A DNA stretch of 34,024 nucleotides from Verrucomicrobiota bacterium (GTDB lineage Bacteria > Verrucomicrobiota > Verrucomicrobiia > Verrucomicrobiales > Verrucomicrobiaceae): contig VFKE01000017.1 of assembly GCA_009885695.1 (NCBI GenBank), forward strand, positions 1-34,024, in the 5' to 3' direction. The position numbers were made by a program, and so were the translations under genes. Positions 3,773-32,674 of this stretch are shown piece after piece. Position 1 is the first letter of the stretch; every line of letters starts with the position of its first letter. Under the pieces are notes generated by a model. The model saw nothing but the letters and a program-made list of their open reading frames with translations, had not been told where the DNA came from and did not search any database.

Positions 3773-5491
3773 ATGTCCGACACTCCCGAGCCTACGACTC
3801 CCGTTGACCTCTCCGATCTGCGCATGACGCCGAAGTGGGTGGCCGACTTTGGCAATGCACAGCCGCAGTTCCAAACCCACGAAGGTGAATCACATGATCG
3901 ACCGCGACGTGATCGCGATGGTCGCGGCGGTGGTGATCGCGGTGGATTCGGTGGCGGCAGAAGCGGACCTCCGCGTGGTGCAGGCGGAAGACCTCCCGGT
4001 GGCGGAGATCGCGGATCGCGCGCGGGCGGTCGTCGTGAAGGCGGACCGCCGCGTGCCGGACAGCGCGATGACCGGCGCGAGCGTGGCGGATTTGGCAGGG
4101 ACAGAGATCAGGGACCACGTTTTGAAAATCCCCCGGTGGTTCAAGGGCTGGTCGTATTGATCGAACCGGACATCAAAGCCGTGGAAGCGATGGCCAGCAT
4201 GATTCGCAGCGCGGGGAAAGCTTACAGCGTGTTCGATGCCGCGAAGCTCGTGCTCTCCAGCGGAGACCGTTTCGATATCACCTTCACGATTGATGCGCCG
4301 AACGCGCCCAAGTTTGCAACGGTGCCCGCCGATGGTTCAGTTTGGCTCACCCGTGAGGATGCCTTGGCGCATCTCATGCAAAGCAACGTTCTCGATCAGT
4401 ATTATCGCGCCGAGGAAGTTGAACTCGAAGAACCCAAGGGCATGTTCACCAGCATCGCCATCTGTGGATTCAGCGGTGAACTGCTCGGCCCGCCCAATCA
4501 TCACAGCTATCAGGCCACCCTGCACCGGATCCATCGCGAAGGATTCAGCAACATCCATTTCGAGGATTTCAAGCGTCGCGTGCGCACGGATTCCAGCCCG
4601 GAAGCCGTCGAGAAATGGAAGGAATCGCAAAGGCGCGGCAGGCAGTGGATCGATCTCAAGGCTGAAGTCCCCGAGGGTGGTGAAGCCCCCCGGTTTAAGA
4701 CGCGCGCGGAAGTGGACACCCATTTCCGCACGCATCACGCGGATTCTTTGCTGGGTGAAACCGCCCGCGCGACTGTGCCTGGCAATATTCCGAAAAAGAA
4801 CCTGCCGCCCACGCTTTACTTCGCGCTGCGCCGGTCGGTGGACGAAGCCCGCAAGCATCTGCTCGGCATCGCGCAGCAGCTTTGCGTCGGATTTGAGAAG
4901 CAGGGGCTGAAGCTCTTCAAGCGCCGGGGAGGAAAACTCTGGGTTAGTCGCACAAGGCCGAAGCTGATCGATAGCAGCGTGGTGCTCTCCGATCGCATTT
5001 CGAAGATGATCGAGCTGGTGAAAACAAAGCCCGGCATCCATGTGAAAGAGCTGGTCGAAACCATCGCGCCCGGAGAAGAAACGCCTCCACAGCAAGCCGC
5101 CGGATGCGCGGAGGCTGAAACCGCGCCCGTGGCGGAAACAAAGCCAAGCCCCCTTGCGCAAGAATGCATCCAAGTGCTGAAGGATCTATACTGGCTCAAC
5201 AGCGAAGGATACCTCGTCGAATATTCTGACAGCGCCGTGTTTATCGGTGTCATGGAGCCACCGCCCGCGAAACCGAAAGCGGCGAAGCCAGTCGTGGATG
5301 CCGGGCAGGTTGAAATCAAAATCGACGAGGCAACGACTACGCTAGAAGTCATATCACCTCCATCAGCAACAGCAGAGAATGTGGATATGAGCGAGGAGCC
5401 AATAAAACACATGGCCGGATCGGATGAAGATTTCATCATCGACCCGCCTGAGGTGGCGTCCTCCCCTGAGAATGCCGAGAACGCGCCCTAG
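3773..5491 (+). CDS. RGG-rich protein of unknown function
   Basis: This 572-residue soluble protein is not one I recognise. After a short start ([15 protein letters not shown]) comes a low-complexity Arg/Gly stretch at about 43-117 with several RGG and RGGF motifs, as in RNA-binding proteins. Then comes a well-ordered part (about 120-400) with [46 protein letters not shown] and the tail [21 protein letters not shown]. The last 170 residues are poorer in order, with a helical [16 protein letters not shown] and an acidic C-terminus. RGG stretches suggest RNA binding, which is inference. Start at ATG 3773 follows the terminator region; upstream in-frame sequence looks non-coding. The stop codon TAG overlaps the hscA stop on the other strand. 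No membrane segment or signal peptide is seen. Confidence 0.85.
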
Positions 5492-7260
5492 CCCAGCTTC
5501 CGCTCCAGCGCCGCCTCCATCGCGCGCTCCACAAGCAGCACAGCGAGCGACTGTGTCGCGTCATCCAGTGATTGATTCGCCGCTTTCAACTTCTTCACAT
5601 CATGCGGTTCGTGATTGATTGAATCGCGCACCTGCGCAGCGCAGGATTTGATTTTGTGCAGCTCGTCTTCAATGAGCAAGGTGCCACACTGGGCGAGAGC
5701 CTCAGCAACAGCTACCAGCAGTTCCTCGCCCTTCAATCGAGACTCGGTCCAGATCCGTTCATTCATGTCCTCGAAGGCGTGGTCCACACTCTCGGCGATC
5801 ATCTGCTCTACCTGGGCATCGTCCACATTCACAGCGGAGCTTTGAATCTCCAGCACGGTGTCGGCCTTGGTCGCGGTGTTGCGCGTCAGCACCTGCAAGA
5901 TGCCATTGGCGTCGAGGGAGAACTGCACACCTACCCGGGCACTGCCCTTCGGTCCTGAAGGAAACAGCACGGCGATGCGCCCCAGTTCCCAGTTGTCTTT
6001 CGCGAGTTCGCGCTCGCCCTGGAGCACGCGGATCAGCATTTCGCTTTGGTTGGTCACGGCGTTGGTGAACATTTCGCCGGCCTTGCAGGGAAGGGTGGTG
6101 TTGCGCGGGATGATGACATTCATCAGCCCACCGAAAGTTTCGATGCCCAGCGACAGCGGTGTGACATCCAGCAGCACCACGTTGCGCAATGAACCGCTCA
6201 AGATGCCGGCCTGGATGACCGCGCCCATCGCCACAGCTTCATCCGGATTCTGCGAGATGTTTGGCTCTTTGCCGAAGATATCTGCCACGATGCGCCGCAC
6301 CAGAGGCATGCGCGTGGAACCGCCCACGAGGATGACTTCATCGAGTTGGTCTGGCTTGAGATTAGCATCGGTCAGCGCCCGGAGGCAGTGTCGGCGAGTG
6401 CGCTCGATCAAGGGCAGTGCGATTTTTTCCAGATCGGTGCGCGTGGTGCGGACGGAGAGGTGTTTCTGTGAATCAAGGAATGGAATCTCGATGGTGACTT
6501 CATCGTGCGATGAGAGTTTTTTCTTTGCCGTCTCAGCGGCATCTCGTAGCCAGGGCATCTTGCCCTTGATGATTTCAAGCGAGGGCAAGATGCCCTGGCT
6601 ACGAATCCAATCTGCAAAGGCACGGTCAATGTCGTCGCCGCCGAGTTGGGTGTCGCCCGCGGTCGCCAGCACCTGGAACACACCGTCGCGCATTTCGAGG
6701 ATTGAAATATCGAAGGTCCCGCCGCCGAGATCATAGACCGCGATCTTTTTCCGCTCCTCCAGCTTGTCCAATCCGTAGGCCAGCGCGGCGGCGGTTGGCT
6801 CGCTGAGAATGCGCTCCACCGTGAGTCCGGCAAGTTCACCTGCGCGCTTCGTGGCCTGGCGCTGGGCATCGTTGAAGTAAGCCGGCACGGTGATGACTGC
6901 GCGAGAAACTTCCATTTCCAGTGCGCGCTCAGCGATGTTCTTCAAGTGCCGCAGGATGTCGGCGGAAACATCGACCGGTGTTTTTCCAATCCCCGTCAAG
7001 TCATACGATGGCTTCCAGTCGCCTTCGCCTTGGCGCCGTCCGATGAGCCGTTTCACGGAACTCACTGTGCGCTCTGGATCCAGCGCGCGCTGCCGCAGTG
7101 CCCTTGCGCCGACAGTGACTGCTCCCTCTTTCGCATAATGCGCCACTGATGGCGTGAGCCGGCTGCCCTCGGCATCGGCCAGCAAGATCGGAAAGCCGCT
7201 GTCCACCACGCCGACTAGTGAGTGGGTGGTGCCAAGATCAATGCCGAGGATTGCACTCAT
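5488..7260 (-). CDS. hscA: Hsp70-family chaperone, HscA-like
   Basis: The 590-residue product is an ATP-driven Hsp70. Nucleotide-binding motifs are intact: [12 protein letters not shown] (6-17), [17 protein letters not shown] (122-138), [13 protein letters not shown] (175-187) and [13 protein letters not shown]. The substrate domain includes [14 protein letters not shown] and [10 protein letters not shown]. It is shorter than DnaK (about 640) and lacks a long C-terminal tail. It follows a J-protein and an IscA gene, so a role in iron-sulfur cluster transfer is likely; a general DnaK paralogue is the alternative. ATG 7260 gives the usual start just before the phosphate-1 loop and lies 8 bases after the hscB stop. 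Residues about 219-239 are encoded by a 61-base perfect-arm palindrome, yet the frame stays open. The stop overlaps the convergent RGG gene. Confidence 0.9.
6544..6604. repeat. Perfect palindrome inserted in frame in hscA
   Basis: Positions 6544-6566 and 6582-6604 are exact 23-base reverse complements around a 15-base spacer. The core, CCAGGGCATCTTGCCCT, is the kind of sequence found in dispersed palindromic elements. It lies wholly inside the hscA coding region, just after the conserved GGDD segment, and is translated in frame without a stop. The mRNA would carry a very strong hairpin here. Confidence 0.9.
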
Positions 7261-7268
7261 CAGTGAAT

Positions 7269-7820
7269 TTACATCAAGGCCAGCAAGCTTTCTCTCACCT
7301 GCGTCTGCCATTTAGCAAGGTAGGCGAATTTCGCCTGTAAAACGCCAAGCTGTTTCCAATCCATGCTGGCATCAAGCCCTGGCAATTCAGCCTCCATTTC
7401 CTTGCGGCGGCGGTCGAGTTCAAATCCAATGCGCTCCAGTGATTCACGCTGCTGCATTTCCTCGTTCGCGAGCAAGGCCTTCGACAAGGCGGTCTGCGCT
7501 TTTAACTTTCGGTCAATGAATTTGGCTGAAGCTTCCAGTGCTGCGCCCAGTTCCGAAAACAAGCTCATCATGCCTTCATCGATTGGCACGGTGCGCCATT
7601 GCTTGGCATCCACTGGCGCGGCGAGTTCCAGCAGATGTTTCAGTCGCTTGTCCGTAGCGCGCAAAATTTCATAAGCGGCATTCACCTCAGCGGCCCTTGA
7701 TTCGTCGCCGCCGTGATCGGGATGCGCGGCGCGGCTGTGAGCGGCATAGGCTTTTTGCAGTGCCCCCTCATCCAGCGCGGCGCGGCGCGTGAAATTCAGT
7801 GTCTTGTAAGCGTCGAACAT
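7269..7820 (-). CDS. hscB: J-domain co-chaperone, HscB-like
   Basis: This 183-residue protein has an N-terminal J domain (about 1-65) with the HPD tripeptide at 33-35 that triggers Hsp70 ATP hydrolysis, and a C-terminal helical part (about 85-183) like that of HscB, which grips the scaffold IscU. HscB proteins are about 170-180 residues, which matches. The C-terminal half carries long Lys/Glu-rich helices such as [19 protein letters not shown]. It is translated from ATG 7820, and its stop is 8 bases from the hscA start, so the two are co-transcribed and probably coupled. I do not see the cysteine tetrad found in some eukaryotic HscB proteins. Confidence 0.85.
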
Positions 7821-7832
7821 ATTCTACGTTGC

Positions 7833-7852
7833 AAGCGACGTGGGCGTCGCTT
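7833..7852. repeat. Small hairpin between iscA and hscB
   Basis: AAGCGACG (7833-7840), TGGG loop, and CGTCGCTT (7845-7852) form an 8-bp stem filling most of the 32-base gap. Sequence of the same kind (AAGCGACGCC) recurs near 28524 after actP. In the operon transcript it could tune the relative yield of the two genes. Confidence 0.5.
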
Positions 7853-8230
7853 CTACGCCGCGAAACTCTCGCCGCAGGAACAGGTCACGACGGCATTGGG
7901 ATTCTTCACCTTGAAGCCGCCTTGCTGGAGGTCATCGCTGAAATCCAGTTCACTGCCGCTGACGAACAGGGCGCTCTTGGGATCGATCACAACCCGCACA
8001 TCGCTGGAGACGACCATGATGTCGCGGTTCGCTGGACCATCGACGAGATCCATCTTGTATTGCAACCCGGAACAGCCGCCGCCGACTACCGCAATGCGCA
8101 GCGCGCCGTGTTCCGCACGGCCCTGCTTTTTTAAGAGGCCGAGCAGCCGCAACGATGCGTTGGGCAGCACCTTGATGAGCTTTTCGTTGCCGAGCTTGTA
8201 TTCTGGGGACTGGGCGGCTGCGACGGTCAT
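7853..8230 (-). CDS. iscA: IscA/HesB-type iron-sulfur carrier
   Basis: The 125-residue product has the three conserved cysteines of A-type carriers: C53 in GGGCSGLQY and C117/C119 in VTCSCGESF. They bind iron or a cluster that is passed to target enzymes. Further family features are KLIKVLPNASLRLLGLLKK at the N-terminus and SGSELDFSDDLQQGGFKVKNPNA before the final pair. The start is uncertain: ATGs at 8230, 8236 and 8278 are in frame. The last would add a hydrophobic stretch unusual for this cytosolic family, so 8230 is chosen. It heads the iscA-hscB-hscA unit; no iscU, iscS, iscR or ferredoxin gene is adjacent. Confidence 0.9.
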   Translation of the reverse strand: MTVAAAQSPEYKLGNEKLIKVLPNASLRLLGLLKKQGRAEHGALRIAVVGGGCSGLQYKMDLVDGPANRDIMVVSSDVRVVIDPKSALFVSGSELDFSDDLQQGGFKVKNPNAVVTCSCGESFAA

Positions 8231-8323
8231 GGACATGGAGATGATAGTGGCAAAGAAGCGGAGAAGCAAAGGCTCCATTGAGCCCCTGACTACTAAATGC
8301 GGGGTTAAGCGGCTGCGTCTTTT

Positions 8324-8578
8324 TTAATAATGCAATAGCGCACGCCCACCCAGCGGATGAAGATGAGTTTCTTCGTAAACCCATCCTGTCAATCTTGTTA
8401 ATCCTGTCTCAACCCACCCATTGTGTTTTTCGGGCTCAATTTCACTGCCGTAGCAGCCGAGGTCGGAGCAACCGAGATCGTCGGCGAGAATAAAGTCGAT
8501 GTTCAGCTTCGAAGCGGAATCGGCGGATGAATTACCGCATAGGGCGAAAGGGAAATATAGAAAGAGTAGCCTGGTCAT
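8324..8578 (-). pseudogene. Sulfatase, N-terminal fragment
   Basis: From ATG 8578 the frame gives a signal peptide (MTRLLFLYFPFALCG) and then the classic sulfatase opening, LNIDFILADDLGCSDLGCYG, with the paired Asp that binds calcium. Similarity ends at about 8441. The remaining codons to the stop at 8324 read through a dispersed repeat (8347-8397) and have no sulfatase character. The CxPSR active-site motif and everything beyond are absent. Normal sulfatases are about 450-550 residues. It is a decayed gene cut off next to the repeat. Confidence 0.75.
8347..8397. repeat. 51-bp dispersed repeat, copy 1
   Basis: This stretch matches 33829-33879 in the same orientation at 49 of 51 positions. 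It contains GATGAGTTTCTTCG and CATCCTGTCAATCTTG. It sits at the break point of the sulfatase fragment. It has no coding sense. Confidence 0.85.
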
Positions 8579-8631
8579 GGATGCGGGTGGCACTGTTGCC
8601 GGATCAAGTCAATGCCCACCAGTGGCAAATA

Positions 8632-9318
8632 CTACCCCGCTTGTGCCATTTGTGGCGGGCAGCTCATGTCGGCGCTACTGCCGCGTTCGTCGTGGGACAG
8701 GGTGCTCGATGGTCCGTCAAACTCGTGCACGCGTGATGCGAAGCGCGCCAGCACTTGGTGCGAGACGGCGTTGAGTGTGGTGAGCACGTTGTGGCCGCGG
8801 GAGGCAGCGGCTTCGTAACTCAGATGGCGCTGTTGGCCGTTGTTGAGCAGATACTCCATGTATTCCACTGGCGCGGCGTTGGGCGCGTCGCGTTTGTTGT
8901 ACTGCAGCACGATGGGGATCTGCTCGATATTTTGGCCGTTCAGGCGGAGGTTGGCCTCGAAATTCTGCCACGCGTGGATGTTGTCACGCTGGCGATCGAG
9001 TTGCGAATCAGCGACAAACACCACGCCGTCGGCCTGACGGAGCACGAGTTGGTAGGTCGCATTGTAGACGATTTGTCCGGGCACCGTGTAGAGATGGAAG
9101 CGGGTGCGATAGCCGTTTAGCACGACGGCTTCCACGGCCAGAAAATCAAAAAAGAGTGTGCGGTCCTGGGCGGTCGCGAGCGAGATCAGATCGCCACGCG
9201 TCTCCGGATCGAGGCATTGATGGACGTGCTGGAGGTTGGTCGTCTTCCCGCCAATCGGCGTGCCGCAATAAACAATTTTGAAGCTGACGTAGCGCTCCGC
9301 GTGGTGGATCGACGCCAT
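8632..9318 (-). CDS. mglA: MglA-type small Ras-like GTPase
   Basis: The 228-residue protein closely follows MglA, the bacterial Ras-like GTPase that marks a cell pole and directs motility or secretion machines. Seen are the P-loop GTPIGGKTTN (19-28), the switch I segment QDRTLFFDF (51-59), the switch II HLYTVPGQ (75-82), where MglA proteins lack the usual DxxG Asp, VADSQ (103-107) and the guanine motif NKRD (141-144). MglA is normally about 195 residues; the extra C-terminal 30 residues (from about 200) are polar and of no known function. No membrane anchor is visible. It lies 12 bases after the roadblock-protein gene, which should encode its regulator. Other MglA-like proteins differ in role, so the target process is unknown. 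Confidence 0.9.
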   Translation of the reverse strand: MASIHHAERYVSFKIVYCGTPIGGKTTNLQHVHQCLDPETRGDLISLATAQDRTLFFDFLAVEAVVLNGYRTRFHLYTVPGQIVYNATYQLVLRQADGVVFVADSQLDRQRDNIHAWQNFEANLRLNGQNIEQIPIVLQYNKRDAPNAAPVEYMEYLLNNGQQRHLSYEAAASRGHNVLTTLNAVSHQVLARFASRVHEFDGPSSTLSHDERGSSADMSCPPQMAQAG

Positions 9319-18121: not shown

Positions 18122-19018
18122 TCACAATCCCGGCGGCCGATCCTTGATGGAGCGGCCCGAGGGACGACTGGGCACGACGATGGTCGGATCGAAGAATTCA
18201 CCTCCCTGAACGATCACATTCTGCGTGGGGTCCACGACCAGATGCGGGCGGTTGGCTTCGATCTCCTTGAAGTAGAGCCGCTTTACAACATTACCCTGGG
18301 TGTTGATGATGATGTGCGAATAAATATGGGGTTGAGTCATAAACAGCACATTGAGCCTGTTTTCCTTATCGAGCGTGATTTGTGGATCAGCCACGTGGAT
18401 CCAGCTTCCAAGCGAAAAGGTGGCGAGATTCATATTGGTTTTGTCTTCGAGAAGTCTCAAATAAAGATTAGTGTGCTCGAAATCCTTGAGCACGGAAAGC
18501 TCGTAGCGCCGGATCTGACCGGCCCCTGCGAGGCCAAGCGGCACACCAAATGGCTTCGACCAAAATGGCTTTGAGGCCGAAAAACCGCCTCGGGCGCGGT
18601 TGGATGCAATGTATTGCTGCGACGGCGGATGATAAACGTTGGCCACGACAATATAGTTTCCGAAATCCGAAAATGTAAACTGGTCGGAAAGTGCGATCTT
18701 CCGCGTGATGGTGGAGCCTGATTTGAAGACAATGTTCTCCTCGCTCCGGAAGCGCATGGGCGGGACGGGGCGCGTTTGTGGATCGATGATGTCAAAACTG
18801 AGCCAGGGGGTGTTGTTCGGCCCACCAAGAACGACATCTGCGCCGGTGCGATTCATGACGGTCACGGAGGCTTCCACGCCTTCGTAGGTCAGATAATTTT
18901 CCTTGTTGAGCTTCAGCGTGATTTCGTATTGCGCACGAGCAACTGCCGGGCAGAGCGCAAGAAACAGCATGCAAAGCGTAAAACGATTCAGCAAAGAATG
19001 CGGAGTGGAGCCGGTCAT
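18122..19018 (-). CDS. Secreted protein of unknown function
   Basis: This 298-residue protein has a signal peptide (about 1-29, LLNRFTLCMLFLALCPAVARA), so it is periplasmic or exported. The mature start, YEITLKLNKENYLTYEGVEASVTVMNRTGADV, looks like an Ig-like or cohesin-type beta sandwich used in surface and periplasmic proteins. The second half (about 170-270) has strands such as SWIHVADPQITLDKENRLNVLF and HIYSHIIINTQGNVVKRLYF that could be half of a beta-propeller. No catalytic motif is seen. It is 68 bases downstream of the fusion-protein gene and could be the third gene of that unit. Confidence 0.75.
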   Translation of the reverse strand: MTGSTPHSLLNRFTLCMLFLALCPAVARAQYEITLKLNKENYLTYEGVEASVTVMNRTGADVVLGGPNNTPWLSFDIIDPQTRPVPPMRFRSEENIVFKSGSTITRKIALSDQFTFSDFGNYIVVANVYHPPSQQYIASNRARGGFSASKPFWSKPFGVPLGLAGAGQIRRYELSVLKDFEHTNLYLRLLEDKTNMNLATFSLGSWIHVADPQITLDKENRLNVLFMTQPHIYSHIIINTQGNVVKRLYFKEIEANRPHLVVDPTQNVIVQGGEFFDPTIVVPSRPSGRSIKDRPPGL

Positions 19019-19086: not shown

Positions 19087-21081
19087 TCACGGGGTGGAAG
19101 GCGGTTGGTCAGACGCGGTGCGAAAGCCGAGCGCTTCACTGGAGCTTTCAGGTGATTTGTAGAAGTGCCGGGCGGTCAGCAGTTCGGGTGAACTTGGTGC
19201 GGCGAAGCACCCTCCGCGAACCAGAGGCACGCGTTTGTCGGGATAGTCGGGATGGTCAGTCCAGGTTGCGGTCCATTCCTCCACGTTGCCCGCCATGCCG
19301 ACCGCACCGCATGGGCTGATATCTGTCGTGTATTTGTTGACTGGTGTCCAGCGCTTGCTGCTATCGATCTTTCCGCTTTTTTCCCCGGTCGTGTCGTAGT
19401 CCTGGCCGAGGTTTGCCGCCTTGGGCATCGCCACATTGCCCCAGGGATAAGCGCGCCCATCGGTGCCGCGCGCCGCTCTTTCCCACTCCTCCTCAGTCGG
19501 CAACCGGCGCCCCTTCCATTTTGCATAAGCAGCGGCGTCCCACCAGTCCACCATCACAACCGGGCAATTCACATCCACGCGTTGTGCATCCACCACTCCG
19601 CCACTGAGCGCAGCGGCGTAAATCTCAACCCATTTGGCAGGTTTGTGCGTCTTTTTTGATGCTGGCTGGAGCGGGTCATCCCATGCAAACGCACGCCTGG
19701 GATCAGCGTCCAGCGCCTTCAAGAATTCGTCATACTGTGAAATCGTGACCTCATACTTGTCGATCCAGAATTTTGATAGCGTCCTATTCCCATTCCGCTG
19801 AAAAATAAATTCGCCTGCGGGCACCGCCACCATTTCCTCGGTCAGCGGTTTAACCGGCCGTGAATCAGCGCCACGATATTTGAACACGATGATGCTGCCG
19901 ATCAACGCCAGCGCCAGACCGACCCAAGCCAATGCGGAGACACTTTTCCCAGCCGAACGGGCGGCTACGATCTCATGTGCCTCCTTCGTATCCGCGCGTT
20001 TCATTAAACTAGCCTGCCGGTTCTGCTCCTGCATGTTTACAGCGCGCCGGTTTAATGTCTCCCAGTCGAGTTTTTGCCGGGCCAGTGTCTCCAACATATG
20101 CCGGGCGCGCTGCCCCTCACAGAGCGCGCGAAGCATCATCAGAAAGCGTCCAGTGTCCGACCCGTAGTCGCGACTCTTTCCGGTTTGCGGACGAATTACG
20201 TTCACAATGCTGGCTTGCTGCTCTTCATCGACAAAAATATCCCGGGCTGTCGGCATGCGATAATGATGGCCACGTAACACCGCCAGGCTCATGGCCTCGC
20301 TCACGCCGGCAATGACATCCGCGAGCGTTTTTTCCTTAAACTTCACGCAGGTGGCGATTAGTTTTTCAAGTGAGCGGCCGTGCGGCATCTCGCGAGTATA
20401 ATACATCCAGCCTTCTAACTTCTGTGCTTCATAGAGTGGTGCGATGCGCGGATGAGTGATTGATGCCTTCACGCGACTGCGTTCGAGGAACCCCTCCACC
20501 GCGGTGGCGTCATTAAGCAGTTCCGGCTTGAGAAGCACCAAGGCCACCTCGCGCTTCACCGACTGCTGCAACGCGAGATAGGTCTCGGAATCTTTCTCCA
20601 CATAGAGACGCTCCTTGATGACATAGTTTCCGAGCACCGTCCCGGGTGGGAGCATGGGGGGCGCATCCATAGCTACCAATTCTTCGTCTGGCACCACTGA
20701 AACGTCAGCCTGAGAGACTGATTGATCCTGGGGACGGACTTGGCCGGCAACCGCAGCAGCGAGAGCCCCATCACCAACTGGTTCGCAGAGCACCACACTG
20801 TCCTCGATGAATGCACCCAATTCCGACAGCTCATTACGGCTCGTGACCACGGTGTGAAGACTAGGAAATTTCTCGCGCACCCCATCGCGAAGATCGAAGC
20901 CCGTGAAATCACCACCGAGCAGGCCCTCCGTGACCAGCACATCGAGCGACTCCAATTGCTGAGCCACGTTCGCCGCGTCTTCCGCACTTTCAGCCGAGTG
21001 CACTGTATGACCTGATAGCGCCAACATTCTGGCACGTTGCAACCTCACCACTGGATCTGGATCCACATATAAAACAACCAT
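19087..21081 (-). CDS. Receiver-like / pseudokinase / TM / FGE-like fusion protein
   Basis: This 664-residue protein joins four parts. Residues 1-115 resemble a response-regulator receiver (VLYVDPDPVVRLQRARML), but the phospho-acceptor Asp is replaced by E52 (VLVTEGLL) and the conserved Lys by E100. Residues 150-340 resemble a Ser/Thr kinase. The Gly loop is lost, the VALK lysine is V182, the HRD loop reads GHHYRMPTARDIFV with Met for the catalytic Asp, and DFG is absent. One TM helix spans 384-401. Residues 415-655 are an FGE/SUMF1-like fold (VPAGEFIF, RRLPTEEEWERAARG, GMAGNVEEW, LVRGGCF, LGFRTA) without the catalytic Cys pair. It is probably a non-enzymatic sensor or scaffold, with the FGE part outside if the kinase part is cytosolic. 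The stop of the upstream gene is 11 bases away. Confidence 0.88.
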   Translation of the reverse strand: MVVLYVDPDPVVRLQRARMLALSGHTVHSAESAEDAANVAQQLESLDVLVTEGLLGGDFTGFDLRDGVREKFPSLHTVVTSRNELSELGAFIEDSVVLCEPVGDGALAAAVAGQVRPQDQSVSQADVSVVPDEELVAMDAPPMLPPGTVLGNYVIKERLYVEKDSETYLALQQSVKREVALVLLKPELLNDATAVEGFLERSRVKASITHPRIAPLYEAQKLEGWMYYTREMPHGRSLEKLIATCVKFKEKTLADVIAGVSEAMSLAVLRGHHYRMPTARDIFVDEEQQASIVNVIRPQTGKSRDYGSDTGRFLMMLRALCEGQRARHMLETLARQKLDWETLNRRAVNMQEQNRQASLMKRADTKEAHEIVAARSAGKSVSALAWVGLALALIGSIIVFKYRGADSRPVKPLTEEMVAVPAGEFIFQRNGNRTLSKFWIDKYEVTISQYDEFLKALDADPRRAFAWDDPLQPASKKTHKPAKWVEIYAAALSGGVVDAQRVDVNCPVVMVDWWDAAAYAKWKGRRLPTEEEWERAARGTDGRAYPWGNVAMPKAANLGQDYDTTGEKSGKIDSSKRWTPVNKYTTDISPCGAVGMAGNVEEWTATWTDHPDYPDKRVPLVRGGCFAAPSSPELLTARHFYKSPESSSEALGFRTASDQPPSTP

Positions 21082-21092
21082 GTGCGTGACAG

Positions 21093-22151
21093 TCAGTTTT
21101 TAGGGAACAGCGCACTGTCCGCACCTGCTGGCCCTGCGCCAGGTGGATTGTAGTTTACCAGCGCCTTCGGCTCCGCCTGCACATCCATGAGACGATCCTG
21201 GTAATAGATTTTCACAACATAACCGTAGTAGCTGCGTTTCCCGAGTTCGCGCAGCTCCTCGGGCTTGAGCTCCGGCATGTTGTAGCTGAAGTCCACCAGC
21301 TCCTCGCTTTCCTTCCAGTCCACCGGGGCGGACACCCAGTTCGGCACCGGCGGATCGGCGCGCGTGGACTCGATCCGGTCAGCACCCACCTTGTCAAAAA
21401 AATAGACGTGAATGTCCATTTGTGCCGGATCGATTTCCACCCCCGGCGCGGCAATGATCGGCACCCGCAGCGCCAGCCGCTGTCCCTTGTTTACCGACTT
21501 GTCCGGAATGACCTGACAGGCACCGAGCGTCACCGAGTTGCGCTCCGGCGTTTTTGGCACCGCCTCCCGGCCCTCGAGTTTCGCCTTCGCCAGCGTGTAA
21601 TATCCGCCCGCACCCAGCTCTCCCATCGCGATGACATTGCGCCACACAGTTTCCGATTTATCCGCCAGACCCATCGCCTCGTAGGTCAGCGCCGTTTCAC
21701 TGAGAATCTCGGGATGATTCGGCTCGCGCAGATCCGCTGCGCGCAAGGATTCCAATGCCAGTTGCATGTCACCCAGCTGGCGCACCGCACGCGCGGCTTC
21801 AACCATTTCACGCACTTGAACATTGGAAATTTCGCGACCTGATGGCATCGATGGTTGCGAACCTCCCACTGATGGGCTGACCGGTGCTGATACGGCGGCA
21901 GATCCGGGCACCGGTAAAGAAACTGCTGGAGGCGTGATTAATGCCGGGGCGCTGGTTGTGGCGAAAGCTGTGACCTGGGTAGATGGTCCAGGCTCGGGCG
22001 ACATACCAGCATTGCCACCAGAAAAAGCACCGCGCCAACCCGCCAAGCCCAGTGCGCCCACGCAAAGCCCTGCCAGCAGGCAAAGGGTCAGTTGCGCGGC
22101 ATAATGAGCGCTCTCGGATCCGGGAACAAGGATTGTATGGGGCTTGGCCAT
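21093..22151 (-). CDS. Membrane-anchored TPR-like protein, partner of the fusion protein
   Basis: The 352-residue protein has one N-terminal TM helix (about 19-40, LTLCLLAGLCVGALGLAGW), then a Pro/Ser/Ala-rich linker (about 50-105), a helical part that looks like two or three TPR-type units (VREMVEAARAVRQLGDMQLALESL, PEILSETALTYEAMG), and a beta-rich C-terminal domain with QMDIHVYFFDKVGADRIE and YYGYVVKIYYQDRLM. No enzyme motif is present. The TM and linker suggest the bulk is periplasmic. It lies directly upstream of the fusion-protein gene, and the two should be translated from one mRNA. I do not recognise a named family. Confidence 0.8.
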   Translation of the reverse strand: MAKPHTILVPGSESAHYAAQLTLCLLAGLCVGALGLAGWRGAFSGGNAGMSPEPGPSTQVTAFATTSAPALITPPAVSLPVPGSAAVSAPVSPSVGGSQPSMPSGREISNVQVREMVEAARAVRQLGDMQLALESLRAADLREPNHPEILSETALTYEAMGLADKSETVWRNVIAMGELGAGGYYTLAKAKLEGREAVPKTPERNSVTLGACQVIPDKSVNKGQRLALRVPIIAAPGVEIDPAQMDIHVYFFDKVGADRIESTRADPPVPNWVSAPVDWKESEELVDFSYNMPELKPEELRELGKRSYYGYVVKIYYQDRLMDVQAEPKALVNYNPPGAGPAGADSALFPKN

Positions 22152-22236: not shown

Positions 22237-23388
22237 TCAGCCTCTGGTGGTTGCAACGGCAGGCATTTTACAACTCACTGCCGTAAAAGTTTCCGCCAGC
22301 GCCCGCCAATCCGCTGCAGTGGTGTCCCAGCCACCACTAACGCGGATGACACGGCTCATCTCATCCATGCTGGCACCGAGCGCGGACAGCACCACTGAGG
22401 ATCCATCGTGCCCCGCGCTACAGGCGGAGCCCGTCGAGACTGCAAACCCCTGCTGACTCAGCCGGGCGAGCCATTTGCGGTTGTCGCCATGAGGCAGCAC
22501 GAACATCGAGGTATTCCAGAGTCGTTCAGCGCCCTGGCCGATAATTCGCAAATCGGGAAACGTTGTGAGCATGTTTTTTTCAAAATCATCACGCATCACA
22601 GATTGCTCAAGCGCGACACCGGCCAACTTGGGAGTCAGCTCCTCCAGCGCCACGACCATAGCCTCGATGCCCGGATAATTTTCCGTGCCCGCCCGTCGTC
22701 CCTCCTCCTGCGGTCCGCCGCGCAAGAACGAAAGCGTCTCCTGCTCATCCCGCATCACAAGAAACCCAACGCCCTTCGGCCCGCCGAACTTGTGGGCGCA
22801 GCCCGTGATGTAATCGCAAGCGCCCAGTTCATGCGCCGGCAGTTTTCCAATCCACTGCGCCGCGTCCGTGTGCACAAGCACTCCGCGCTCGCGACACAGC
22901 TCCGCGATGTCGCGCCACGGTTGCAACAGCCCGCACTCGTTGTTCGCCGCCATCACCGTGACCAGACCCACATCATTACGCGCCAGATGCTCCGTAAAAT
23001 CATCTGCATCCAGTTCACCTCGAGGCGTGGTCTTGACCAGCGTCACACGACTTCCAAACTGCCGCTGCAAAAATTCGCGCACGCTTGGATGCTCGATGCT
23101 GGATGACACGACGCGCGTCTGCTTGCCAAGCGTATCGCCCATTCTGGTGAACAGCGCGTTGTTTGATTCCGTCGCGCCGCTCGTGAACACAATGCGCTCC
23201 GGTTCGCAACCCAGCAGCTCACCCAGCCGCTGGCGCGCCTCATCGAGTTTTCGTTTTGTCATCGCCGCCTCCCGGTAAAGCGATGAGGGATTGTGCCAGT
23301 GTCGTTCTGATGCGCGCAGCCAGGCATCGCGTGCGCCATCGCTCAGTGGCGTGGTGGCGTTATAATCAAAGTAACCGCTCATCTTCAT
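22237..23388 (-). CDS. Cysteine desulfurase, NifS/IscS family
   Basis: The product (383 residues from ATG 23388) is a PLP enzyme that takes sulfur from cysteine for iron-sulfur clusters or other thiolation. Seen are the start YFDYNATTPLSDGAR, FTSGATESNN (PLP-phosphate area), SSIEHPSV, HTDAAQWIGK (Asp/Gln contacting PLP), CAHKFGGPKGVGF with the PLP lysine at about 200, and the active-site cysteine in STGSACSAG at about 323. The length fits group I. ATG 23382 is also possible. No iscU is adjacent, although iscA-hscB-hscA lie about 14 kb away. The stop is about 85 bases from the next gene. It could also serve tRNA thiolation. Confidence 0.92.
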   Translation of the reverse strand: MKMSGYFDYNATTPLSDGARDAWLRASERHWHNPSSLYREAAMTKRKLDEARQRLGELLGCEPERIVFTSGATESNNALFTRMGDTLGKQTRVVSSSIEHPSVREFLQRQFGSRVTLVKTTPRGELDADDFTEHLARNDVGLVTVMAANNECGLLQPWRDIAELCRERGVLVHTDAAQWIGKLPAHELGACDYITGCAHKFGGPKGVGFLVMRDEQETLSFLRGGPQEEGRRAGTENYPGIEAMVVALEELTPKLAGVALEQSVMRDDFEKNMLTTFPDLRIIGQGAERLWNTSMFVLPHGDNRKWLARLSQQGFAVSTGSACSAGHDGSSVVLSALGASMDEMSRVIRVSGGWDTTAADWRALAETFTAVSCKMPAVATTRG

Positions 23389-23452
23389 ACCAGTAGCAGA
23401 CAACGTGAGGAGACTCTAACTTTTCTCCGCAGACCACAGCATGAACATCCAT
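23366..23452 (-). CDS. Possible 28-codon upstream ORF overlapping the desulfurase start
   Basis: On the minus strand GGAGGAGG (23460-23467) lies 7 bases before ATG 23452, the best ribosome-binding site I see in this window. The ORF, starting MDVHAVVCGEKLESPHVVCY, has two cysteines and ends at 23366, overlapping the desulfurase start in another frame. It could couple or attenuate translation of the desulfurase. No homologue is known to me, so it may be chance. Confidence 0.3.
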   Translation of the reverse strand: MDVHAVVCGEKLESPHVVCYWYEDERLL

Positions 23453-28612: not shown

Positions 28613-29185
28613 TCACTGCGGGATGTGAATCTGATCGCCGGGGCGCACTTGGATGGCGGCATCTGTGCCGTCGGCTTTCTTCAAGTCGAGGATGCGCGTC
28701 ACGCCGCCGCGAGTGAACTTGGCTGCCTTGAGTTTTGCAAAGTCCGTCGGGCCGCCGGCGGAGGTCATGGCCTGATGAACAGTCATGCCGGGACTGAGCA
28801 GGACACGACCAGGTATTTTCACTTCACCACTGACATAGAGAACCTGCGTGCCCCCTCCATCCGCCTTGTTCGTGGTCACCTGGATGGTGGGATGAGTGAA
28901 GATCTCTGCGGTCTTATAGGCCGACTCAATGTTCTCCTGCAACTGCGAAGGCCGGAGTCCGCCAGCGCGAACCTTGCCGATGTAGGGCAGGTTGATCGTC
29001 CCGCCGTCGGAGATGTCGTAGGTGTTGTTGACCACGGCGATCTCCTCGGAGGGAACTCCGGAGAGCTTCACAGCGATGCTGTCGCCGGGACGCAGAGTTT
29101 GTTCAACGCCCTGGGCGGGGGCCGGAATGCGTTCAAAGAAGACGGCGGCCAGTGCGACAAGCAGTGGGATGAGTTTCGTATTCAT
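28613..29185 (-). CDS. Wza-like polysaccharide export protein
   Basis: The 190-residue exported protein has a signal peptide (about 1-25, ending APAQG), a polysaccharide-export domain (about 30-115: LRPGDSIAVKLSG, YDISDGGTINLPYIGKVRAGGLRPSQLQ) and an SLBB-type domain (about 118-190: YVSGEVKIPGRVLLSPGMTVHQAMTSAGG, RVRPGDQIHIPQ-like end). Such proteins form or gate the outer-membrane exit for exopolysaccharide. Wza is about 380 residues with two SLBB domains and a C-terminal membrane helix; this short form, with one SLBB, must rely on another protein to cross the outer membrane. The beta-barrel two genes upstream is the natural candidate. It starts 18 bases after the kinase stop. Confidence 0.88.
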   Translation of the reverse strand: MNTKLIPLLVALAAVFFERIPAPAQGVEQTLRPGDSIAVKLSGVPSEEIAVVNNTYDISDGGTINLPYIGKVRAGGLRPSQLQENIESAYKTAEIFTHPTIQVTTNKADGGGTQVLYVSGEVKIPGRVLLSPGMTVHQAMTSAGGPTDFAKLKAAKFTRGGVTRILDLKKADGTDAAIQVRPGDQIHIPQ

Positions 29186-29203
29186 GACTGAGATGAGGGT
29201 GAA

Positions 29204-31375
29204 TTAAAATACATCATCACCTGCATTGGCCGGAGCCATGGCATGGGATTCAGCTGACGACTTGGATTTGCGGCGCGAGTCCTTCGAAGAAACGTGCTGC
29301 GGCTTGTTGTAGTAGCTGTAGTAGCCCGTGTAGTAGCCGTAGGAAGAGTCGCTGCGGATGTCGACGTTGTTGAGCACCACGCCGATTACGTTGCCGCCGA
29401 CATTATCCACGGCCTGCTTGACGCGCTGGAGCATGTGGCGCGGAAGTTTACGGTGCTGCACGACGATGATCGTAGCATCCACTTCCGCAGCCAGCACGCT
29501 GGCGTCGCTGACGCCGAGGATGGGCGGTGAGTCGATGAGCACGAGATCGAATCGGCTTTTCACGTCGGTGAGCAGATCGGTGAAGCGCTTGGTGTTCAGC
29601 AGGCCGGCGCTGTCGGCGGGCATGATGCCGCTGGGCATGAAGTAGAGATTGGGCACGGGCGTTTGCATCACTGCTTCTTCCAGCGGCATCTGCGAGGTGA
29701 GATAGGTGCTGAGGCCGGTGCTGCTGGCGACATCGAAAAACGTGTGCATGCGCGGGCGGCGCAAGTCAGCATCGATGATGAGCGTGGTGTAACCAGCCTG
29801 GGCGCAGACGTAGGCGAGGTTGACCATGGTGGTGGACTTGCCTTCGCCAGCGCCGCCGCTGACAACGCTGATGCAGTTCACTTCCGGCGACTTGCGGTTG
29901 AATTCGATGTTCGTGCGCAGAATGCGGTAGGCTTCGGCATCGGGATTGTTGCCGGTGGTGCGGTGCAGCACGGGCACATCCTTGGGAATAACAGCCAGCA
30001 CCGGGACGCCAAGCTGGCGTTCCACGTCGTCCATACTCTTTACACTGGTGTCGAGGTATTCGAGGAAGAATGCGAGACCGAAACCGAGCATGAGTCCCAC
30101 GGCCGCGCCGAGCGCCAGATGGAGCAGCACATTCGGCTTGAACGGTCTGGACTCCGGTTCAGCTGCTTGATAAATCGTGACCGGTGTCTTGGACATCTGG
30201 CGGTCGATTTCTTTCTGCGCCTTGGTGTCCTTGAGCTTGGCCAGTTCCATCTCGGTGATCTCCCATTCCTTCTTGGCCTTGAGAAACTCCTGGTTGCTGG
30301 ACTGCGCGCTGATGGATTTGTCGCGTTGCTCCTTGTTGAGACTCTGGATTTCCTCCAACTGCTTGTGCTCGATTTCAATGCGCACATCGAGGTTCTTCCG
30401 GTAGTCCTCTGCGGCGGCGAGCAGCTGTTTGCGCGTCTCTGCGAGCTGGGCGTTGACCGAAATCATGTTCTGATGCTTCGGACCAAGACCCTGACTGACG
30501 ATATTTTCCTTTTTCAGCAGCAGATCCTGGTAGACCGGACCAAGCTTGCGAATGGTGTCGTTCTCGACGCGCAATTCACCGGCCTGGCGGATGAGATCAT
30601 CGCCCTGCAGCTTCTGAAGCTGCACGATCTGCGCCCTCATGTCGCCGATGTCTTTCTGTAGCCTGTAAACGTCCCGCGCCGCTTCGGCCACGATCCCGCC
30701 TTCCGGCGTGATGATGTCATCCTGTCCGGCGCTGCGCTGCACATTGTAGGACGGCATCTCGACGATGTTTTTGTCCTTCTTGATCTGGAGCATTTTTTGA
30801 AGGGAAATATTGGTGACCTGCTCTTTCGCGGCGATCTGGGCGATGAGCTGGGTGACGGCGCTCTCATTGCGGGCGTTGTCCACTTCCAGCCGCATTTCCC
30901 GGTAGCTTTCCCCCACGGCATTCGCGATGTCGGCGGCGAGCTTGGGGTCTTCATCGTAATACTCTACCGTGATGAAATCAGACTTGATGCTGCTCTGGGA
31001 GTCAAGGTTCCCGAGCAGCTTTGAGATGGTGTGCTGGCGGGCGGGGTGGTTCCAGCGATTCTGGAGATCCAGTTTTTCCACCACGCGATCGAGTGTTTTG
31101 CGCTTGGTGATGATTTCGAATTGAGTCTTTAGAAAATTGTCAGCGAACGGGCTGGTGACATCGAGCTGACTGTGTCCCTCAACCCTGACGTCCTGGGCGT
31201 TGCGCTCGATGACCATTTCGACTTTGCCCCTGAATTTGCGAGGCATAATGTAGGTGATGATGGCGGCAGCAGCAAAGACCAGGAGAAATGAAAAGAGGAT
31301 CAGCCCGGCCCGGTTTCGGATGATCTGCCAGTAATCATGGGCGTGGCGTTGCAACTCCAAGTTTTCAGGATTCAT
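29204..31375 (-). CDS. Wzc-type polysaccharide co-polymerase and BY tyrosine kinase
   Basis: The 723-residue inner-membrane protein has TM helices at about 23-43 and 416-438, a long periplasmic coiled-coil region (about 150-400) and a cytosolic kinase. Walker A is SGGAGEGKSTT (506-516), Walker A' is IIDADLRRP (533-541), Walker B is LVLIDSPP (611-618). A tyrosine cluster lies at 679-689 (SYGYYTGYYSYYNKP, seven Tyr), the trans-phosphorylated tail. It is a single-chain form as in Wzc. These kinases control polymer length and export by cycling phosphorylation and assembly. The stop is 18 bases from the Wza-like gene. No phosphatase gene is near. Confidence 0.94.
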   Translation of the reverse strand: MNPENLELQRHAHDYWQIIRNRAGLILFSFLLVFAAAAIITYIMPRKFRGKVEMVIERNAQDVRVEGHSQLDVTSPFADNFLKTQFEIITKRKTLDRVVEKLDLQNRWNHPARQHTISKLLGNLDSQSSIKSDFITVEYYDEDPKLAADIANAVGESYREMRLEVDNARNESAVTQLIAQIAAKEQVTNISLQKMLQIKKDKNIVEMPSYNVQRSAGQDDIITPEGGIVAEAARDVYRLQKDIGDMRAQIVQLQKLQGDDLIRQAGELRVENDTIRKLGPVYQDLLLKKENIVSQGLGPKHQNMISVNAQLAETRKQLLAAAEDYRKNLDVRIEIEHKQLEEIQSLNKEQRDKSISAQSSNQEFLKAKKEWEITEMELAKLKDTKAQKEIDRQMSKTPVTIYQAAEPESRPFKPNVLLHLALGAAVGLMLGFGLAFFLEYLDTSVKSMDDVERQLGVPVLAVIPKDVPVLHRTTGNNPDAEAYRILRTNIEFNRKSPEVNCISVVSGGAGEGKSTTMVNLAYVCAQAGYTTLIIDADLRRPRMHTFFDVASSTGLSTYLTSQMPLEEAVMQTPVPNLYFMPSGIMPADSAGLLNTKRFTDLLTDVKSRFDLVLIDSPPILGVSDASVLAAEVDATIIVVQHRKLPRHMLQRVKQAVDNVGGNVIGVVLNNVDIRSDSSYGYYTGYYSYYNKPQHVSSKDSRRKSKSSAESHAMAPANAGDDVF

Positions 31376-31477
31376 GGCAGATCAACGGATGATGGTTATT
31401 AGTTAATATAACTTAACAAATGTGGGCAAAAAAAACTAATTATATTTTTTGGGCTCCAACTCCCAGTGCAAGGTGAG

Positions 31478-32674
31478 TTAGAAACTGGCGTTCAAGCCCA
31501 CGGTCGTGTAGTGGCGGTTATAATCATTGAATGAGATGTCGGAGTTGATCGTGGTGAAGGAGTAGCTGGCCTGGACGGCTACATTCTTGTTGATCTTATA
31601 GTTCATGCCGAGGCTGCCGTAGAACTGGTTTTCATTCGCGCCGGATACGGTGTCGCTGGCTTGATAGTCGCTGTAAACGTAGCCCAGGCCCATGTTGCCA
31701 GTGAATCTCTCGCTGAACTGATAGTCGGCGATGATTCCCGTGGAATAGGAGTAGCGAGCGTCAAATTCACCAACTTGCGAACCATTGTAGCCCAGCAGGT
31801 TGTACCAGCGCAGGCTGGAATGGCGGGAGGTCGCGAGGTTGAGCGAAGCCTCGAGGTAGGGCGCGATGTCTTGGTTTCGATCGGAGTCATAGAACTGCGC
31901 GCCCACCCGGGCGCTGGCGGCCAGGGTCGGGCTCCAGGCCTGATCAACGCCGACGAGAAGATAATGCGCCGTATAGTCAGGATTGATCTGATCGGCGGGA
32001 CTGTCGGGATAGGTGTCTTTTTCGTAGCGGTATTCAGCGGTTAGCGCGGTGGTGCGGCTGAGTTTGTAGCTGAACTGCAGCGCGACGATGTTGGTAAGAC
32101 GGTTTTCAAACTGGCCGAGATCGTCGTCCTGATATTTGATGCCTGAGAACGTATAGGATGCCGTGGTCGCGAATCTTTCGGACCACGCATAGCTCACGGC
32201 AAAGTTGTTGTAGCCGTAGAAATACTGGCCGGAAGGGATGGCGTTGGAAACACCAATGTTGAAATCGGGCTCTATTTCATAGGCCGCGTAAAGATTGTTG
32301 GATACGGTGAGCCGGCGCGAAGCTGCGTGTTGAATGTTGAAATTCGCGCGGGTGTTGTAGTTGGTGTTCTTGTCTCCCGGCCCCTTATTGAAGTAGTAAA
32401 GGGCATCGAAGTCGCCACCGGTGGTGATCTCGGTGATGCGGTCGCTTTTGGCAAAAATGAAGCCAAGACCAGCACCGACAAAACCTGAATCCACGTCCGT
32501 ATTTGAAGTGTCGGTGTAGCTGATGCGATCGTAACCTGACAGTGCGCTGACATTCAACTTGAAGGGGACATTCTCTTTATAGTCGGATTTCTGTCCGATT
32601 CCGAGCAATCCCTGACCGTGAAGGGGGATGGTGGACATTAGGAGCGCTCCGAGGAGGAAAACAACTGCTTTCAT
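31478..32674 (-). CDS. Outer-membrane beta-barrel protein of the EPS unit
   Basis: The 398-residue exported protein has a signal peptide (about 1-22, MKAVVFLLGALLMSTIPLHG) and then about a dozen or more amphipathic strands ending in a Phe (TTVGLNASF), the usual outer-membrane insertion signal. Repeated features include Tyr-rich strands like SYAWSERFATTASYTFSG and TALTAEYRYEKD. Its position between the small secreted protein and the Wzc-like gene suggests that it makes the outer-membrane channel or anchors the export complex, as barrel proteins do in other EPS clusters. Substrate cannot be told. The gap to the Wzc-like start (31375) is 102 bases and AT-rich, so a second promoter is possible. 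Confidence 0.8.
   Translation of the reverse strand: MKAVVFLLGALLMSTIPLHGQGLLGIGQKSDYKENVPFKLNVSALSGYDRISYTDTSNTDVDSGFVGAGLGFIFAKSDRITEITTGGDFDALYYFNKGPGDKNTNYNTRANFNIQHAASRRLTVSNNLYAAYEIEPDFNIGVSNAIPSGQYFYGYNNFAVSYAWSERFATTASYTFSGIKYQDDDLGQFENRLTNIVALQFSYKLSRTTALTAEYRYEKDTYPDSPADQINPDYTAHYLLVGVDQAWSPTLAASARVGAQFYDSDRNQDIAPYLEASLNLATSRHSSLRWYNLLGYNGSQVGEFDARYSYSTGIIADYQFSERFTGNMGLGYVYSDYQASDTVSGANENQFYGSLGMNYKINKNVAVQASYSFTTINSDISFNDYNRHYTTVGLNASF

Follow-up and report, generated by a model that had tools for sequence, protein, structure and literature searches.

The window, by which we mean the whole stretch of 34,024 nucleotides that was analysed, carries at 19087-21081 a complete open reading frame of 664 aa with an intact frame. 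Judged from the frame, its orthologues and the AlphaFold2 model, it encodes a fusion of a pseudo-receiver, a pseudokinase, a transmembrane (TM) helix and an FGE-like domain; this gene, its parts and its two partner genes are all on the minus strand. The model had a mean pLDDT of 90.5, and low confidence was confined to the linkers.

The receiver-like domain occupies residues 1-115 (20737-21081). Its Pfam Response_reg match (residues 3-84, 18.8 bits) stayed under the curated cut-off, and AlphaFold2 placed alternating strands and helices in it, giving a (beta-alpha)5 receiver fold in residues 1-111 with pLDDT mostly >90. The pseudokinase with the helices after it follows at residues 147-376 (19954-20643); Pfam Pkinase matched residues 165-265 at 17.3 bits, again under the curated cut-off, and the assignment rests on the PknA/PknB profile, the fold and an alignment with active kinases. 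A single TM helix at residues 383-403 (19873-19935) is marked by a hydrophobic segment of conserved position and by an AlphaFold2 helix of the same extent. The FGE-like (SUMF-like) domain, residues 415-656 (19114-19839), gave a strong match to FGE-sulfatase (PF03781, 151 bits) and is predicted to be periplasmic: with one TM helix between it and the pseudokinase, it should lie outside the cytoplasm.

A family profile built from 59 homologues and compared with PDB sequences matched FGE/SUMF2 (E 5e-39, with SUMF2 as the best PDB match) and PknA (E 4.7e-26), and Foldseek matched the kinase part to the PknB kinase domain (E 1.7e-11). The family profile, AlphaFold2 and, for the kinase part, Foldseek confirm the assignment of the receiver, bilobal kinase and FGE/SUMF folds that the earlier note had read from the sequence.

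Lost catalytic and pocket positions

At 30% identity, the catalytic positions were placed from profile and MAFFT alignments, with the predicted fold as support. The earlier note described a four-part fusion with three non-catalytic modules, and the alignments of homologues and of active kinases indicated that all the replacements it named are real. Judged from the sequences, each of the three modules lacks the residues by which its parent family carries out catalysis, and all three are under purifying selection.

In the receiver, the phospho-Asp position is Glu52 (20926-20928), which was found in 46/46 family members, and the conserved Lys position is Glu100 (20782-20784), with Asp or Glu in 42/46 and Lys in 0/46; both Glu residues had been named in the earlier note. 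Of the acidic pair, Asp7 (DD1) is kept in 45/46 sequences, whereas at the second acidic position (DD2) the window protein has Pro8 and the family Ser, Pro, Ala, Gly or Val. The conserved Thr/Ser is retained in column 81, which was fixed by alignment with class relatives (T in 36, S in 9 and C in 1 of the 46). Among 25 non-redundant family members only 6/115 receiver columns are invariant, namely D7, E52, G61, F62, T80 and R82. D7 and E52 are pocket positions, R82 is T+1 and column 80 is T-1. Glu52 co-occurs with Arg82 and the lost Lys in 46/46 family sequences, which we read as a pocket fixed in a single state, perhaps through a salt bridge within the domain.

The losses in the kinase part likewise bear out the earlier reading. 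The VAxK lysine position is Val182 (20536-20538; V in 46/46 family members), the HRD aspartate position is Met276 (20254-20256), the DFG aspartate position is Asn294 (20200-20202; N in 101/107 sequences and invariant in the 59-sequence alignment), and no GxGxxG Gly loop was found in the window protein when it was aligned with active kinases. The earlier note had not listed the TM helix at 383-403 or two further changes: the alpha-C Glu position is Arg201 (Arg in 46/46 family members), and the activation segment with APE is deleted, as only ~12 residues lie between DFN and helix alpha-F, compared with ~40-60 in active kinases.

In the FGE-like part, the alignment of the RGG segment places Ala628 (19198-19200) at the first catalytic Cys position, which we take to be human Cys336. 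The GGCF sequence and the absence of C-x4-C that had been pointed out are found here: C-x4-C after RGG is absent in the window protein ('RGGCFAA..') and in the aligned homologues displayed.

Conservation and history of the fusion

Long orthologues are present in 65/68 genomes of the family of the window (Verrucomicrobiaceae, here f1), and homologues occur across the class Verrucomicrobiae. The HRD Asp is absent in 108/108 sequences, a set that extends to other families within the order and to further orders in the class, and the DFG position is Asn in 46/46 family sequences. Pairwise Nei-Gojobori dN/dS was calculated per domain with our own script for 11 pairs; where dS is near 1, the values are only approximate. 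The ratio came to 0.010-0.091 in the pseudokinase, 0.028-0.186 in the receiver and 0.037-0.182 in the FGE-like part, and the pseudokinase was usually the most constrained domain. The motif losses are more than chance, since 107 homologues, which are under purifying selection, show the same replacements; this recurrence fits the scaffold that the earlier note proposed.

At the depth searched, the extent of the family is narrower than had been supposed. The earlier note thought of a PVC-wide family, but a profile search of a 195-genome sample of the phylum (E<=1e-40) gave no homologues outside the class of the window.

Among the relatives, the VAxK Lys is retained in 15/25 at the class level and in 9/27 at the order level, and this pattern suggests that it was probably lost later, or repeatedly. 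Because the Lys is kept in 15/25 of them, some class-level relatives may bind nucleotide.

The receiver varies among the relatives. It is canonical in four loci (L122, L129, L134 and L135); the phospho-Asp position holds Glu in f1 and a second class branch (L123, L131, L132, L136, L139 and L141) and other residues in families f3-f6. The receiver is absent in f2, a family that includes a genus with genomes of 2.2-3.3 Mb. The earlier note regarded the receiver as an addition. As class relatives carry canonical receivers and f2 has none, the simpler history is probably that an older receiver decayed or was lost, and a recent gain is less likely, on a tree that is unrooted.

The operon and its neighbours

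Directly upstream of the fusion lies a gene for a 352-aa protein (21093-22151) with an N-terminal TM helix, TPR repeats and a C-terminal beta domain. No Pfam family matched it above the cut-off; its profile matches TPR proteins, and AlphaFold2 predicted the TM helix at residues 13-43, TPR helices at 111-197 and the beta domain at 207-333. In every locus where it was found (95/95), this gene immediately precedes the fusion gene in the same orientation; the count includes a few loci representing the same contig fetched twice. Downstream, a 298-aa protein with a signal-peptide-like N-terminus is encoded at 18122-19018, and its gene adjoins the fusion gene in 71 loci. Neither a Pfam nor an NCBIfam family was matched by this protein, and a profile search gave no significant match. 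Its gene profile was found in 102/141 class genomes, mostly as a single copy, which puts it near the core genes of the class. Within one genome this profile gave a second, short match (G000:C203:11082-11315), possibly a remnant.

The operon of the TPR gene, the pseudokinase fusion and the secreted-protein gene is new here, and it has been kept more steadily than the set of domains that its middle gene encodes. The middle gene of L233 (4366-5043), flanked by the TPR and secreted-protein genes, codes for a receiver-like protein of 225 aa with DUF4388, and in L232 the two outer genes occur with no middle gene. As the TPR and secreted-protein genes also occur without the pseudokinase, their products can act without it.

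An Amidase_3 gene (Pfam E 2e-54) follows the 298-aa gene in 19/52 loci with room for it, and L233 has Amidase_3 and then a YjeF_N/Carb_kinase (NAD(P)H-hydrate repair) gene beyond the operon. The recurrence of this neighbour suggests an output in the envelope or peptidoglycan. Within f1, the window included, no Amidase_3 gene adjoins the operon, so the envelope link is suggested only by association in other families. An aminotransferase class V gene upstream (22237-23403) was rejected as an operon member, being matched in only one fetched locus. A role in anti-phage defence was also set aside, as the PADLOC matches were to a generic kinase only (PD-T4-6).

Proposed role, alternatives and related systems

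On balance, the data make it somewhat probable that the 664-aa protein acts without catalysis, as a transmembrane scaffold for signalling that belongs to an envelope module. In the mechanism that we propose, the FGE-like part would sit in the periplasm and bind a ligand or a partner, possibly the TPR or the secreted protein; such a ligand-binding role is generic, as Cys-less FGE-like domains are common. The pseudokinase would serve as a docking site for a partner in the cytoplasm and would not bind ATP and Mg. The receiver would be fixed in one state by Glu52 and Arg82 with no switching by phosphorylation, and binding outside would alter the docking of the partner inside. The output could be the upkeep of peptidoglycan or of the envelope, which is the weakest step. 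More tentatively, there may be a class-wide envelope system of Verrucomicrobiae, in which a central TM protein with all its domains degenerate relays by binding and works on the TPR protein, the secreted protein and the amidase.

The Glu of the receiver could otherwise be a fixed phosphomimic, as the earlier note proposed, leaving the receiver permanently 'on' and the pseudokinase in its active docking state. The invariance of this Glu in f1 and its presence in the second class branch agree with the idea, and Glu is reported to be the commonest residue in Asp-less receivers and to activate some regulators partly (PMC12632262). The phosphomimic idea has, however, been disproved for some pseudo-receivers (PMC12632262), and in the present family the second acidic residue is lost and the contacting Lys is mostly acidic and never retained. 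The idea is plausible, though weakened: a simple phosphomimic that depends on the lost Lys is less likely than the locked receiver, and we rate it as rather unlikely.

An unusual activity of the kinase part, such as nucleotide binding, AMPylation or similar, as in some other pseudokinases, would account for the survival of the VAxK Lys in part of the class- and order-level relatives and for the nearly invariant Asn at the DFG position. It is nevertheless unlikely in the family of the window, where the Lys and the alpha-C Glu are uniformly Val and Arg, the Gly loop is missing and the activation segment is deleted.

We consider it quite improbable that the protein is a scaffold of a secretion system or of motility, comparable to the FGE-like PorK/GldK rings (type IX) or the pseudokinase EssB/YukC (type VII). 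PorK/GldK match the family profile at ~91 bits, and EssB/YukC shows that a membrane secretion system can include a pseudokinase (PMC12599244), but no secretion gene was recognised among the recurrent neighbours, and PorK/GldK are labelled lipoproteins in the match lists whereas the 664-aa protein is TM-anchored. Finally, a pseudogene, or an active receptor kinase that broke down recently and persists by chance, would explain the loss of all motifs and the two domains below the Pfam cut-offs, but it is refuted by the full-length orthologues in nearly all family genomes, the low dN/dS and the conserved operon.

The scaffold reading can be set against several known systems. The Hanks-type membrane Ser/Thr kinases PknB/PknA share the kinase fold, a cytoplasmic kinase part, a single TM and an external sensor part. 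On the other hand, the 664-aa protein has lost all catalytic motifs and the activation segment, its FGE-like part replaces PASTA, and a receiver stands in front. MviN is a mycobacterial membrane pseudokinase that works with FhaA and is tied to peptidoglycan control; its architecture is different, and it recruits its partner by phosphorylation. Planctomycetota kinase-FGE fusions of ~1000-1300 aa (L027, L028, L037, L040, L049, L054, L067, L069, L070 and L074) also join a kinase domain and a C-terminal FGE-like domain in one protein. They differ in their intact HRDIKPAN and DFG, a longer middle region and the absence of a receiver-like match. As these fusions keep HRDIKPAN and DFG, the kinase and FGE layout is not inherently non-catalytic. 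Chlamydial Pkn1, to which the earlier note likened the protein, would share the kinase and FGE-like layout according to that note. It is, however, described as a validated, autophosphorylating, cytoplasmic kinase (PMC5177608) and so reported active, unlike the 664-aa protein without kinase motifs, and together with the planctomycete fusions it speaks against the likeness.

A review of 2025 lists seven bacterial pseudokinase families and mentions no Verrucomicrobia, receiver or FGE (PMC12599244). ActPs1-3, GLW, CP1, DLHK, DYD and EssB/YukC share with the 664-aa protein a conserved non-catalytic kinase fold, and in GLW the kinase part is likewise followed by a TM, but their motifs appear to differ and that review names none of them with a receiver or FGE. 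Plant PRRs and the fungal Rim15p share the Glu at the phospho-Asp position, and Rim15p joins this pseudo-receiver to a kinase (PMC12632262). Rim15p differs in being called a kinase and in having no TM or FGE-like part (PMC12632262 and general knowledge). SUMF2 and other Cys-less FGE paralogues share the FGE fold without the catalytic Cys pair, whereas in the 664-aa protein this fold comes after a TM helix, in one chain with a pseudokinase.

Bacterial pseudokinases and pseudo-receivers are common, and their functions or mechanisms are largely unknown according to the reviews of 2025 (PMC12599244, PMC12632262). A literature search of less than full coverage found no prior paper on this protein. 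If the scaffold reading is true, information would pass between periplasm and cytoplasm purely by binding, via a Glu/Arg-locked receiver, a kinase fold without its activation segment and a Cys-less FGE fold. A pseudo-receiver and a pseudokinase are united here in a single protein found almost throughout its family, which includes Verrucomicrobium sp. strains, and the defined operon supplies candidate partners. Evolutionary intermediates are extant, with a canonical receiver and a pseudokinase, a pseudo-receiver and a pseudokinase, or a pseudokinase without a receiver, so the order and the purpose of the losses are testable.

Two other gene sets were observed on the minus strand of the window. 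At 5488-9318, genes for an HSP70 (607 aa), a DnaJ-domain protein (183 aa) and a Ras/Arf/Roc-like small GTPase (228 aa) stand together, adjoined by an 865-aa ORF without a Pfam match. An exopolysaccharide export set lies at 28613-32674, consisting of Poly_export/SLBB, a BY-kinase-like Wzz/AAA_31 protein of 723 aa and BBP2_2, an outer-membrane barrel.
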